Source: Micavibrio aeruginosavorus ARL-13
Lineage (GTDB): Bacteria > Pseudomonadota > Alphaproteobacteria > Micavibrionales > Micavibrionaceae
DNA length: 64,000 nt
Reading direction: 5' to 3'
NCBI RefSeq assembly: GCF_000226315.1
Contig: NC_016026.1
Coordinates: forward strand, 124,001-188,000
Under the pieces are notes generated by a model, which saw only the letters and a list, made by a program, of their open reading frames with translations, searched no databases and was not told where the DNA came from. Below are positions 32,605 to 55,785 of this stretch, one piece after another. Positions within the stretch are counted from its first letter, which is position 1; the number at the start of each line of letters is the position of its first letter. Both the position numbers and the translations under genes were made by a program.

Positions 32605-35346
32605 ATGGTCGCATATTATGCGGGCGCGATATGGCGCGGGGCTGTGTTTCGGTCCAGGGTCTGTGGTGCTGTTTTATGTCTGACGGGTTTTCTCTTCCTC
32701 TTTTCCGGGGGTTTTTCCACGAGCGCGTTTGCGGCCTGCTCTTCCCCGTCCGGTGTGGCGGGTGATTTGATCTGGGACAACACCGCCAATGCGCCGGCGT
32801 ATTGCAACGATACGGCCTGGGTGCATTTTCCGACGGGAATGGCGGGGGATGCCTATACGGCGACGGCATTTCTTTCGAACCCAAGCGCAGTGGCTGACGA
32901 TGATTTCGGATCAGCAATCGGGATTTCCAATGGAAAAATTGTGGTGGGCACGCGCATGCGCGATGTATCCGGCGTGAGCAATTCGGGTCGGGCGCATATT
33001 TTTGATGCCGAAAGCGGCCGCCCTCTGGTGACGTTGGTGAACCCTGATAATACAGCCGGGGACCAGTTTGGTCACGGGGCAGATATTGACGGCAACCTGG
33101 CTGTTGTTGGTGCGCCGGTAAATACGGTGGGTGGCGTGGCCCAGGCGGGATCGGCCTATGTCTATAACGCGACGACGGGCGCACTGGTGGCGACGCTGGA
33201 TAACCCGGCACCGGGTAACATGGATTGGACCGGGTATGACGTTGCGATCTCCGGCACCATTGCTGTTGCGGGGACGCCGCGTAACGGGGCGGGCGATCAT
33301 GGGTCTGTGCATATTTACAACGCCTCGACCGGTGCTTTCTTGCGCGGCTGGAATGCACCGGATCAGGCGGATGGCGATTGGTTTGGTGTTGCTGTCGATA
33401 TTGATGGCGACCTCATTGTCGTGGGGGCGCACCAGAAAGAATCCGGGGCGATCACGGACGCGGGCAGGGCCTATGTGTTCAGTGCGGCGGATGGGTCGCT
33501 GGTCGCCACGCTGAATAATCCCGCCCCCGGTGCGAATGATAATTTTGGCCGCGCGGTTGCAATTCATGGCACGGTGGCGATTGTGGGGGCACCGAATGAT
33601 ACGTCCGGCGGTGTGGCTACTGCCGGGGCGGCCTATGTGTTCAACGCGCAAACAGGCGCTTTGCTGACCACTCTTGAAAACCCCGACCCCGAGGCGAGTG
33701 ACAATTTTGGCATGGCGGTTGCGATCCATGGCGGAAAGGTTGTTGTGGGTGCGCGCTGGGCCAATGTTGACGGGCTGGACAATGTGGGTGTGACCTATGT
33801 GTTCAGCACATCAACAGGGGATTTGATTGATACGATTCATAATCCCGCACCGGCGGCCAGCGACACATTCGGGTCGCAGGTTGCGATTGAGGGCGAGTAT
33901 GTCGTGGTCTCCGCCCGCAATGATGCCTCGGGTGGTGTTTTGACATCCGGTGCGGCGCATGTGTTCAAGCAGCAGCGCCCAGCCCTGAAAAACGCGCAGT
34001 TGATCGGAACGCTGGATAACCCCGATCCTGGGGTTGATGATCGGTTTGGCAACGTCATGGAAATTTCCGGCGATTATGTCGCGGTTGGGGCGTGGACCAA
34101 CGATGTGGCGGGTTTTGATGATGCCGGCAGTGTGTATGTATTTGATTTGCGTACAGGGGCGCTGGTCTCTTCTATCGATAATCCCGAGCCTGCTGTGGGC
34201 GATGCGTTTGGTTTTAATATTGATCTTGATGGGGCGACGTTGGCCGTTGGTTCGCACCTGGATGACCCTGGTGGTGTTGTGGATGCGGGCAGTGTTTATA
34301 TCTTTGATGCGCTCAGTGGAGCGCTGTTGCGGCGTTTGAATGACACGACGCCAGAACCGAATGAGCGATTTGGTTTTGATGTGGGTTTATCGGGCAATCT
34401 GGCGGTGGTTGGTGCCAACTTGGCCGATCCCGGCGGGGTTACCAATGCGGGCGCGGCGTATGTTATCAATATTGATACTGGAACAGTTGTAAGTACGCTG
34501 AATAATCCGGCTCCCGGGTCTGGGGATGAGTTTGGCGTTCGTGTTGTGATTGCCGGGGACAAGGTCGCTGTCGGGGCCTATAAAGATGATCCTGGTGGGG
34601 TTGTGGATGCGGGGTCGGCCTATGTTTTCAATGCGACGACAGGGGCGCTGATCGCAACACTGAACCATCCGTCACCGACGACGGATGCGCAATTCGGACT
34701 GGGTATTTCCCTGTCGGGTGATCTGGTTGCCGTCGGGGCGTTTCTCAGTGACTTGAACGGCGTGACGGATGTAGGGGCCGCCTATATTTTTGACGCCAAT
34801 ACGGGGGCCAATTTAAAAACCCTGACCAGCCCCTATCCCAACACGAATGATCGTTTCGGCAATGGTATTGAATTGGTTGGTGATCTGGTGATTATCGGGT
34901 CGCGTTTTGATGATTCCAGCGGCACGACCGATGCGGGCGCGGCCTATGTCTTCAATGCCCGAACGGGGGCGCTGGTGCGAAAATTTTATGCGCCGACACC
35001 AACGACTGGTGATGAATATGGTGCGCGCCCATCCATGTCCACCCGCTATGTTGTGATTGGCTCGCGCTGGCGCGATGTGGGTGGTGTTGCTGACACGGGG
35101 CAGGTCTATGCCTATGCTTCACTCTGCACGAACCCGAATGGGGCTGTGGGGGATATCACCTACAATACAACGTCCCATGTTTTGCAATATTGCGCGGGTG
35201 GGGACTGGATTGGTGCCGGCCCGGCGGGTGATGGTGGTGCGGGTTGCACCGGCCCTGCGGGGATTGAGGGTGACCTGATGTATAATTCCACCCACAATTA
35301 CCTGCAATATTGCGAAGGCGATACATGGCGCGGTATTGGGTTTTAG
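32605..35346 (+). CDS. Secreted FG-GAP protein with fourteen repeats (two predicted propellers)
   Basis: About 913 residues. The signal peptide (LCLTGFLFLFSGGFSTSAFA) is followed by the N-terminal Cys module, then fourteen FG-GAP-like repeats. Between repeats seven and eight the usual short FNATTGALV link is replaced by FKQQRPALKNAQLIG, marking a likely border between two seven-bladed propellers. Two C-terminal Cys modules end the protein with no extra domain. An in-frame TTG lies at 32599; the ATG at 32605 was preferred. It is convergent with aroA, only 7 bp away and with no visible terminator. Confidence 0.84.
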   Translation: MVAYYAGAIWRGAVFRSRVCGAVLCLTGFLFLFSGGFSTSAFAACSSPSGVAGDLIWDNTANAPAYCNDTAWVHFPTGMAGDAYTATAFLSNPSAVADDDFGSAIGISNGKIVVGTRMRDVSGVSNSGRAHIFDAESGRPLVTLVNPDNTAGDQFGHGADIDGNLAVVGAPVNTVGGVAQAGSAYVYNATTGALVATLDNPAPGNMDWTGYDVAISGTIAVAGTPRNGAGDHGSVHIYNASTGAFLRGWNAPDQADGDWFGVAVDIDGDLIVVGAHQKESGAITDAGRAYVFSAADGSLVATLNNPAPGANDNFGRAVAIHGTVAIVGAPNDTSGGVATAGAAYVFNAQTGALLTTLENPDPEASDNFGMAVAIHGGKVVVGARWANVDGLDNVGVTYVFSTSTGDLIDTIHNPAPAASDTFGSQVAIEGEYVVVSARNDASGGVLTSGAAHVFKQQRPALKNAQLIGTLDNPDPGVDDRFGNVMEISGDYVAVGAWTNDVAGFDDAGSVYVFDLRTGALVSSIDNPEPAVGDAFGFNIDLDGATLAVGSHLDDPGGVVDAGSVYIFDALSGALLRRLNDTTPEPNERFGFDVGLSGNLAVVGANLADPGGVTNAGAAYVINIDTGTVVSTLNNPAPGSGDEFGVRVVIAGDKVAVGAYKDDPGGVVDAGSAYVFNATTGALIATLNHPSPTTDAQFGLGISLSGDLVAVGAFLSDLNGVTDVGAAYIFDANTGANLKTLTSPYPNTNDRFGNGIELVGDLVIIGSRFDDSSGTTDAGAAYVFNARTGALVRKFYAPTPTTGDEYGARPSMSTRYVVIGSRWRDVGGVADTGQVYAYASLCTNPNGAVGDITYNTTSHVLQYCAGGDWIGAGPAGDGGAGCTGPAGIEGDLMYNSTHNYLQYCEGDTWRGIGF

Positions 35347-54763: not shown

Positions 54764-54803
54764 AACCGCCAAAATCTGCCTCGAATGCTCTGTATGAAAT
54801 TCA

Positions 54804-54838
54804 AACCCCCGGCCTTGATGAAGGGCGGGGGTTTTCTA
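54804..54838 (+). terminator. Terminator after the zinc-finger gene
   Basis: ACCCCCGGCCTT, GATG, AAGGGCGGGGGT followed by TTTC: a 12-bp stem with one mismatch. It overlaps the predicted heat-shock promoter of hsp20. Confidence 0.65.
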
Positions 54839-54841
54839 TAT
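54814..54841 (+). promoter_or_regulatory. Predicted sigma-32 (RpoH) promoter of hsp20
   Basis: CTTG (54814-54817), 17-bp spacer, TCTATAT (54835-54841). It matches the alphaproteobacterial heat-shock pattern CTTG-N17/18-CYTATNT with one mismatch. It predicts a start about 125 nt before the hsp20 ATG, the length of leader seen with ROSE thermometers. Confidence 0.55.
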
Positions 54842-54943
54842 ATTTAAATGGATGGTGCCGGATGGCCGGGCCATCGATTGCACACCGCCAAGGGTGCCGG
54901 GGATCCGGGCCAGCTGGGGGTGGGTGATCTGAACAACATCAAA

Positions 54944-54965
54944 CCTCGCTTATCTTTGAAGGAGG
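54944..54965 (+). promoter_or_regulatory. ROSE-like RNA thermometer hairpin
   Basis: CCTCGCTT (54944-54951), loop ATCTTTG, AAGGAGG (54959-54965). TCGCT (54946-54950) matches the ROSE element UYGCU and faces AGGA of the Shine-Dalgarno, with one G (54948) bulged, as in ROSE hairpins. At low temperature it would hide the ribosome site 6 nt before the ATG. Further hairpins (for example GATGG-CCGGG-CCATC) lie upstream in the leader. Confidence 0.7.
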
Positions 54966-54971
54966 ATTATT

Positions 54972-55451
54972 ATGACATCACGCCTGACCGTGTTCGATTC
55001 CCCCCTGTTTCTGGGCTTCGAACAATTTGAACGCACACTGGACCGGATTAAAAAAACATCCGACGGTTATCCGCCTTACAATATCGAACAGATCGGGGAA
55101 ACGGGGCTGCGTATTACGCTGGCGGTTGCCGGGTTCACCATGAATGATCTGGATGTCGAAGTTGAAAACAATCAACTGACCATCCGCGGCCATCAGGCCG
55201 AAGACGACGATACGCGCCTGTACCTGCATCGCGGGATTGCGGCGCGGCAATTCCAACGCTCTTTCATCCTGGCCGACGGTATTGAGGTCGATGGCGCATC
55301 GTTGGATAACGGTTTGTTGCATATCGACATGAAACGGGTCGAACCCGAATCGGCGGCCCGCAAAATCGCCATCAAGGATCAAAACGTCCTTGGCCAGAAC
55401 GGCCATTCATCCCGCAAGGCGATCGACGTCGAAGGCCAGAATAACAAATAA
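54972..55451 (+). CDS. Small heat shock protein (Hsp20/IbpA type)
   Basis: 159 residues. ATP-independent holdase chaperone. The alpha-crystallin domain runs from YPPYNIEQIGETGLRITLAV (about residue 36) to LDNGLLHIDMKR. N- and C-terminal arms, including FDSPLFLGFEQFERTLDRI, are typical of the class A alphaproteobacterial proteins. It is preceded by GGAGG in a thermometer hairpin and a heat-shock promoter, and followed by a 12-bp stem and the DUF1150 gene that commonly accompanies it. Confidence 0.95.
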   Translation: MTSRLTVFDSPLFLGFEQFERTLDRIKKTSDGYPPYNIEQIGETGLRITLAVAGFTMNDLDVEVENNQLTIRGHQAEDDDTRLYLHRGIAARQFQRSFILADGIEVDGASLDNGLLHIDMKRVEPESAARKIAIKDQNVLGQNGHSSRKAIDVEGQNNK

Positions 55452-55473: not shown

Positions 55474-55509
55474 CCTAAGCAACGCGTGTCTTCTTAAGCG
55501 TTGCTTAGG
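55474..55509 (+). repeat. Perfect 12-bp hairpin between hsp20 and the DUF1150 gene
   Basis: CCTAAGCAACGC (55474-55485), 12-nt loop, GCGTTGCTTAGG (55498-55509). There is no T-run, so it is not a classical terminator. It could stabilise or process the hsp20 message, or be a binding site. Confidence 0.7.
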
Positions 55510-55545: not shown

Positions 55546-55785
55546 ATGACGGACTGCAAAACAACGGACTGCAAATCGGCGTCCGCCCTTCGCGACATTT
55601 CTGCGCAGGATTTTCTCGGCTTTGGTGTGCAGCATGTTGCCTATGTACGCCCGGCCATTCTGAACGGCCAGAAGGTGTTTTCCATCCATGCTGCTGATGG
55701 GACGCCGCTGGGGTATCACGATAATTTCGATGCGGCCCTGGTCCTGACACGTCAGAACGATCTGGAACCTGTGCGCGTGCAGTGA
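55546..55785 (+). CDS. DUF1150 family protein
   Basis: 79 residues from the ATG at 55546 after AAAGGGG. It carries the family pattern DFLGFGVQHVAYVRPAIL and HAADGTPLGYHDNFDAAL. DUF1150 genes commonly follow hsp20 in alphaproteobacteria; their role is unknown but linked to the heat-shock operon by position. It ends at a strong shared terminator. Confidence 0.88.
   Translation: MTDCKTTDCKSASALRDISAQDFLGFGVQHVAYVRPAILNGQKVFSIHAADGTPLGYHDNFDAALVLTRQNDLEPVRVQ

Follow-up and report, generated by a model that had tools for sequence, protein, structure and literature searches.

A probable ROSE-type RNA thermometer in the hsp20 leader of Micavibrio aeruginosavorus, and leaders of similar design upstream of rpoH

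Is the short leader of the hsp20 gene of Micavibrio aeruginosavorus ARL-13 an RNA thermometer of the ROSE type? An earlier note, made from the letters of a 64-kb stretch of the genome (the window, whose numbering is used throughout), had read it as a ROSE-like element with one bulged G over the Shine-Dalgarno (SD) sequence. That reading is supported by covariation, conservation and linkage to hsp20, and the sequence comparisons reported here indicate that the leader is very likely a ROSE-type RNA thermometer. The assignment rests on the structural hallmarks of the functional class. Such an element is ordinary in kind and apparently undescribed for this lineage; no paper on Micavibrio and RNA thermometers was found in the open-licence literature. 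Two findings were unexpected: bulged-G hairpins in tandem, and the rpoH leaders described below. The features of the locus are collected in Table 1.

Table 1. Features of the hsp20 locus (window positions) and of the related rpoH leaders.
Feature	Position	Strand	Remarks
Promoter-like CTTGAT-N16-CTATAT	54814..54841	+	sigma-32-like string; similar strings upstream in orthologues
Upstream hairpin H1a, GAUGGU[G]CCGG-AUGG-CCGGGCCAUC	54851..54875	+	bulged G54857, Y[G]C/GG core
Longer predicted stem-loop containing H1b	54876..54929	+	minimum-energy fold
Upstream hairpin H1b, GGU[G]CCGG-GGAU-CCGGGCC	54893..54911	+	bulged G54896; upstream hairpin in the R2 match 54890-54965
Probable SD-sequestering ROSE hairpin CCUC[G]CUU-AUCUUUG-AAGGAGG	54944..54965	+	bulged G54948; SD GGAGG 54961-54965; covariation, model R2, folding
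hsp20, IbpA-type small heat shock protein, 159 aa, presumed regulated gene	54972..55451	+	Pfam HSP20
Putative ROSE-type two-bulge rpoH (sigma-32) leaders	L236-L241, L125		two alphaproteobacterial orders

The hairpin over the hsp20 Shine-Dalgarno sequence

The open reading frame at 54972-55451 matched Pfam HSP20 with an E-value of 8e-18. Upstream of it, TCGCT lies at 54946-54950, AGGA at 54960-54963 and the SD, GGAGG, at 54961-54965; the ATG begins at 54972 behind a 6-nt spacer (ATTATT), and the 3' end of the leader reads ACCUCGCUUAUCUUUGAAGGAGGAUUAUUAUG. In the ROSE register the hairpin has seven pairs, C-G, C-G, U-A and C-G followed, after the bulged G54948, by C-G, U-A and U-A, so that exactly one G is unpaired. 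The SD strand has no unpaired G in this register, and the hairpin ends at the SD. The proposed pairing of UCGCU with AGGA around a single bulged G was correct to the base (54944-54965), as was its distance of 6 nt from the ATG of a small heat shock gene. Features of the class are found here as UCGCU imperfectly paired with AGGA, which is the U(U/C)GCU of the 3'-proximal hairpin, as one unpaired G opposite the SD, and as the classical association with a small heat shock gene, in this case one of the HSP20 family.

The bare motif TYGCT-N3-16-AGGA-N3-12-ATG occurred at 52 sites in the genome, and the reversed pattern at 14. With 52 sites, the motif alone was rejected as evidence for a thermometer. 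The genome has a second HSP20 gene, whose GGAGG, by eye, is not preceded by TYGCT. Since the sequence of the motif or the hairpin would not by itself prove an element, the comparison with relatives described in the next section was made.

RNAfold favoured another loop register (CCUC..GAGG with UUA/UGA), which was lower by 0.2 kcal/mol at 25 °C and by 0.6 kcal/mol at 37 °C. The 37-nt hairpin stretch was modestly more stable than its shuffled versions (z -1.5; 18 of 200 shuffles folded as well), and the whole leader was not notably more stable than shuffles (z -0.7). The accessibility of the SD predicted by ViennaRNA rose from 0.11 at 25 °C to 0.15 at 42 °C with no melting step. In the same calculation the accessibility of the E. 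coli ibpA thermometer fell from 0.52 to 0.42, though this element is proven, and that of E. coli ibpB and of two Rfam-ROSE loci changed little. Folding across 20-50 °C says little either way, because the proven E. coli ibpA element shows no predicted melting. When G54948 was deleted in silico the hairpin locked (accessibility 0.002 at 42 °C). We infer that the leader of the window responds to temperature by melting in the cell.

The mechanism we propose is as follows. At low temperature the last hairpin would pair UCGCU with the AGGA of the SD, with one G bulged, and ribosomes could not bind. Warming would melt this weak hairpin, and translation of the small heat shock protein (sHsp) would start. 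Transcription would probably be raised as well, through a sigma-32-type promoter. The two upstream hairpins with a Y[G]C/GG core, of which most relatives have one, would lie close to the mRNA 5' end and would most likely aid the folding or stability of the element.

The promoter-like string listed in Table 1 resembles what we take to be the sigma-32-type consensus, and it ends 9 nt 5' of H1a. The pattern CTTG-N15-19-TATA[T/A], which was picked after inspection of the sequences and has a few copies at odd distances, was present upstream in 29 of the 73 orthologues (the copy of the window counted) versus 1.1 expected from first-order resamples. Transcription would start near 54847-54850, and a leader length of about 125 nt is plausible. 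Because the promoter-like string ends 9 nt before it, a bulged-G hairpin probably stands at the start of the hsp20 mRNA. By eye, a terminator-like hairpin (CCCCCGGCC..GGGCGGGGG followed by TTTT, 54804-54838) overlaps the proposed heat-shock promoter, and CTTGAT lies inside it.

Upstream hairpins and covariation in relatives

The earlier note had supposed that a 125-nt leader could hold the additional upstream hairpins of ROSE elements. This was right and understated, as two such hairpins were found and both share the bulged-G core of the SD hairpin. Known ROSE leaders contain two to four hairpins in about 60-120 nt; here two upstream hairpins and the SD hairpin lie in about 125 nt, counted from the presumed 5' end.

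A protein search covered 95 genomes, the window's own included, and gave a match in 84. All 73 matches above 170 bits were taken as orthologues. The paralogues were the 15 that could be placed among 17 fetched from 56 weaker matches; L091 and L092, which had no tblastn match, were dropped before the 88 leaders were counted. In 79 of these 88 hsp20 leaders, a few of them with implausible spacing, the last 45 nt before the start contain TYGCT with AGG behind it. This motif was missing in nine (L015 and L017 with a TTGAT variant, L050, L055, L058, L063, L066, L074 and L084); in L050 TYGCT is present with no AGG behind it in range. In L012 and L016 the upstream bulged-G hairpin and UCGCU are kept and the SD is AGGGG instead of AGGAG.

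The innermost pair of the SD hairpin was examined in 58 orthologue leaders, with loops of varying length and without an alignment, by comparing the base after TYGCT with the base before AGGAG. C-G was found in 33 leaders, U-A in 18, U-G in five, A-A in two and C-A in none. The position was thus paired in 56 leaders versus 44.6 in shuffles (Fisher 1.6e-10; 0 of 10000 shuffles as high), with kinship ignored, and both figures overstate the significance because related sequences are not independent. Among 13 paralogue leaders the innermost pair formed in nine versus 8.5 expected (the others being two C-A, one C-C and one U-U). As this is no better than shuffles, the paralogues give no support at the innermost position.

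In an alignment of 47 leaders that was fitted to the structure, 96.1% of 720 cells were paired (0 of 500 shuffles as high) versus 47-57% in slid versions of the alignment, and 11 of the 16 pairs had changes on both sides. The structure is kept by compensatory changes in relatives, as in the ROSE class. The earlier note had named a lack of covariance in relatives, together with a lack of a temperature effect on translation, as evidence against its own reading; covariance was found both in the fitted alignment and, free of any alignment, at the innermost SD pair of the orthologues. The motif alone is weak; the comparison with relatives makes the hairpin real.

The upstream hairpin was recognised by its core, a pyrimidine-G pair, a bulged G and a C-G pair. 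In an alignment-free search (score at least 17) it was found in 61 of the 73 orthologue leaders versus 2.2 in dinucleotide shuffles. When the bulged base in the search was replaced by A, C or T, one, none and none of the orthologue leaders matched, respectively. The outer stem of this hairpin varied freely in the 47-leader alignment with its pairing kept. Two upstream bulged-G hairpins (score at least 15) were present in the window and in L004, L006 and L014 of its genus, and also in L030 and L060; a fifth genome of the genus, G003, was matched in part and left out of this comparison.

Covariance-model searches and the leaders of rpoH and dnaK

The earlier note had proposed an Rfam covariance search, and this was negative. 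At gathering thresholds Rfam had no match in the 64-kb window, and at E-values up to 10 no ROSE family was among the 10 matches on 54780-55020. These 10 permissive matches were chance-like, nine of them falling on the terminator-like hairpin 5' of the promoter. The negative result reflects the model, because at gathering no ROSE was reported in 17 of 17 relatives either.

Two covariance models were built from the leaders themselves. The first, R1, was built from 12 leaders and in the window detected only hairpin H1b (E 0.99) of the element; a stretch at 34270-34321 scored higher (E 0.033). The second, R2, was built from 47 leaders with the window and its copies L003 and L004 excluded. In the window R2 had 54890-54965 as its sole match at E up to 10 (22.9 bits, E 6e-4), and since it did not report 34270-34321 in that range, the latter was taken as chance.

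Class-wide, R2 at E up to 0.1 gave 56 matches in 53 of 385 alphaproteobacterial genomes. The window's own genome was absent from these matches, the filters being stricter in this search. All 56 were inspected, and the downstream gene was hsp20 in 44, rpoH in two, dnaK in one (NCBIfam for the latter two genes) and none of these in nine. The hsp20 cases comprised 28 of 30 fetched loci, one locus known beforehand and 15 of 25 weaker loci; in L180 hsp20 begins about 60 nt past the match. Four of the 56 lay in the window's order and were training-set members; outside that order hsp20 was downstream in 40 of 52. The nine matches with no hsp20 within 600 nt and no recognised rpoH or dnaK were taken as chance, some chance matches being expected in 385 genomes because the R2 E-values are rough and apply per genome. 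At E up to 0.001, 24 of 385 genomes had an R2 match; for Rfam's ROSE model the figure was 8 of 289, with one match exceeding the model's cut-off. Rfam at gathering reported no ROSE in 20 of 30 R2 loci tested. The public model thus misses a compact form of ROSE, and the leaders found here extend the ROSE type to a clade of little-known bacteria that includes predators. R2, trained on Micavibrionales leaders, also weakly matched the E. coli ibpB leader (L101 2406-2457, E 0.1).

Eight rpoH leaders were examined, and six had the two-bulge leader, all of them in two orders. All three rpoH genes found in the G188 order had it, as did all three in the order of G246. R2 matched in four of four genomes of the G188 order, three of the matches being rpoH leaders; behind the fourth (L173) there was no gene start, and rpoH was not found in that genome. 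At E up to 0.1, R2 detected four of the six rpoH leaders; the two it missed, in G343 and G115, were recognised by eye and with a stem script. The upstream stems differ, for example AUAACU[G]CUU..AAGGGUUAU and CCGAAU[G]CC..GGGUUCGG, and in L241 the stem is short (3+2 pairs). By eye, the element was absent from the Micavibrio rpoH leader (L243) and from the rpoH leader (L242) of the genome with the dnaK match. The dnaK leader, found in one genome (L124 1501-1559), contains UGUGGU[G]CU..GGCCACA and UUCGCUUAUUGAAAGGA directly 5' of dnaK. None of the six rpoH leaders and the dnaK leader matched Rfam's ROSE at gathering.

In a 2014 review ROSE elements were said to occur always with small heat shock genes (PMC4166951), and later papers have reported them for ABC transporter and rhlA leaders (PMC12857270, PMC13104619). 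Among the open-licence papers listed, most of them judged by title, there was no report of ROSE before rpoH. If rpoH leaders of this design act in the same way, the master regulator of the heat-shock response would itself be under a ROSE thermometer.

Comparison with known elements and alternative explanations

The leader shares several features with RF00435, the rhizobial hspA type. In that consensus the first hairpin, cCgGcc-GCC..GGggCcGg, has one unpaired G, as in the window, and the last hairpin places UUGCUC over GGAGGA before hsp20, with which the window agrees. However, the last hairpin of RF00435 continues through an outer stem to the start codon, whereas that of the window has seven pairs without an outer stem, and the window element is not a member of RF00435 as modelled. 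In layout it comes close to the two-hairpin thermometers of Pseudomonas ibpA, which are compact and have a GC-rich upstream hairpin, a short SD hairpin with UYGCU, an unpaired start codon and an ibpA-type gene downstream (PMC3669281). The window differs from these in its two upstream bulged-G hairpins. In that report the P. aeruginosa element retained 1.4-fold heat induction when the G facing the SD was deleted; the same deletion alone left 6.8-fold induction in P. putida, where the element was locked, and silent at both temperatures, only once a U-G pair was also changed to C-G (PMC3669281). The C-G pair that P. putida needed for locking is already present in the window.

Among the E. coli leaders, those of ibpA and ibpB have UCGCU opposite AGGAG before an IbpA-type gene, like the window, and the ibpB leader reads TCGCTT-CTTAG-AAGGAG. 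By eye, the ibpA leader has a U[G]U/AA bulge and, unlike the window, no upstream hairpin of the Y[G]C/GG type. The ROSE-G elements of ABC transporter leaders need a bulged G on the anti-SD strand for thermosensing (PMC12857270), and the window has such a G. They have CUGCU, and their SD side bears a bulged G as well, whereas the window has UCGCU and an SD strand without a bulge.

That the hairpin is a mere chance complement of a strong SD, a pyrimidine-rich run upstream of GGAGG without regulatory function, is suggested by the 52 genomic sites of the bare motif and by a hairpin that is unexceptional when set alone against shuffles. Conservation, covariation and the upstream bulged-G hairpin across the order argue against this, as does the clustering of R2 matches before hsp20 genes in other orders, and we regard such a coincidence as extremely improbable. 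Stabilising hairpins are common near the 5' ends of mRNAs, and the upstream hairpin seems to lie near such an end; the hairpins might accordingly act in mRNA stability or as a DNA-level binding site for a regulator, and translation would not be controlled. Yet what is conserved is base pairing, maintained through compensatory changes, and not the letters themselves, and the SD lies within the last hairpin; a generic leader or DNA site is therefore very unlikely.

More weight belongs to the possibility that the leader serves chiefly to bind the sHsp or another protein, which would recognise the bulged-G hairpins and repress its own translation, with temperature acting through titration of the sHsp by aggregates and not through melting of the RNA. 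E. coli IbpA attaches to the 5' UTR of its own mRNA, which it represses; R93 is needed for this, possibly with Y34 (PMC10474464). At the positions aligned with R93 and Y34 the window protein, all 73 orthologues and all 15 paralogues have R and Y, and the bulged G is as strictly conserved in the hairpin away from the SD as over the SD, which fits a recognition motif. But R93 is not specific, because it is common across alpha- and gammaproteobacterial IbpAs (PMC10474464). K98 of the same basic patch of E. coli IbpA is S in the window protein, and in Pseudomonas the SD hairpin (hairpin II) alone sufficed for 8.7- to 9.8-fold thermoregulation (PMC3669281). We consider it unlikely that protein binding is the main function. 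Melting of the RNA and binding of the sHsp can coexist, however. Since the equivalents of R93 and Y34 are kept in the window protein, its orthologues and its paralogues, autogenous control of Micavibrio hsp20 is possible by analogy, and the conserved bulge in the hairpin off the SD is a candidate sHsp site.

The function of ROSE 5' hairpins was called not fully understood in the Pseudomonas report (PMC3669281). A bulged G that is strictly conserved in a hairpin away from the SD makes their role testable. We tentatively suggest, as a proposal that may well prove wrong, that the Y[G]C/GG bulge might be a tandem recognition or sensing module and not a passive folding aid, and that the two-bulge leader might be a general alphaproteobacterial heat-shock device taken up by rpoH (six of six in two orders and none of two elsewhere) and by dnaK (one genome).

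On the 3' side of hsp20, an inverted repeat seen by eye at 55474-55509 (CCTAAGCAACGC..GCGTTGCTTAGG) is probably the terminator of the gene. A DUF1150 gene of unknown function (55546-55785; Pfam E 3.6e-9) lies directly downstream of hsp20.
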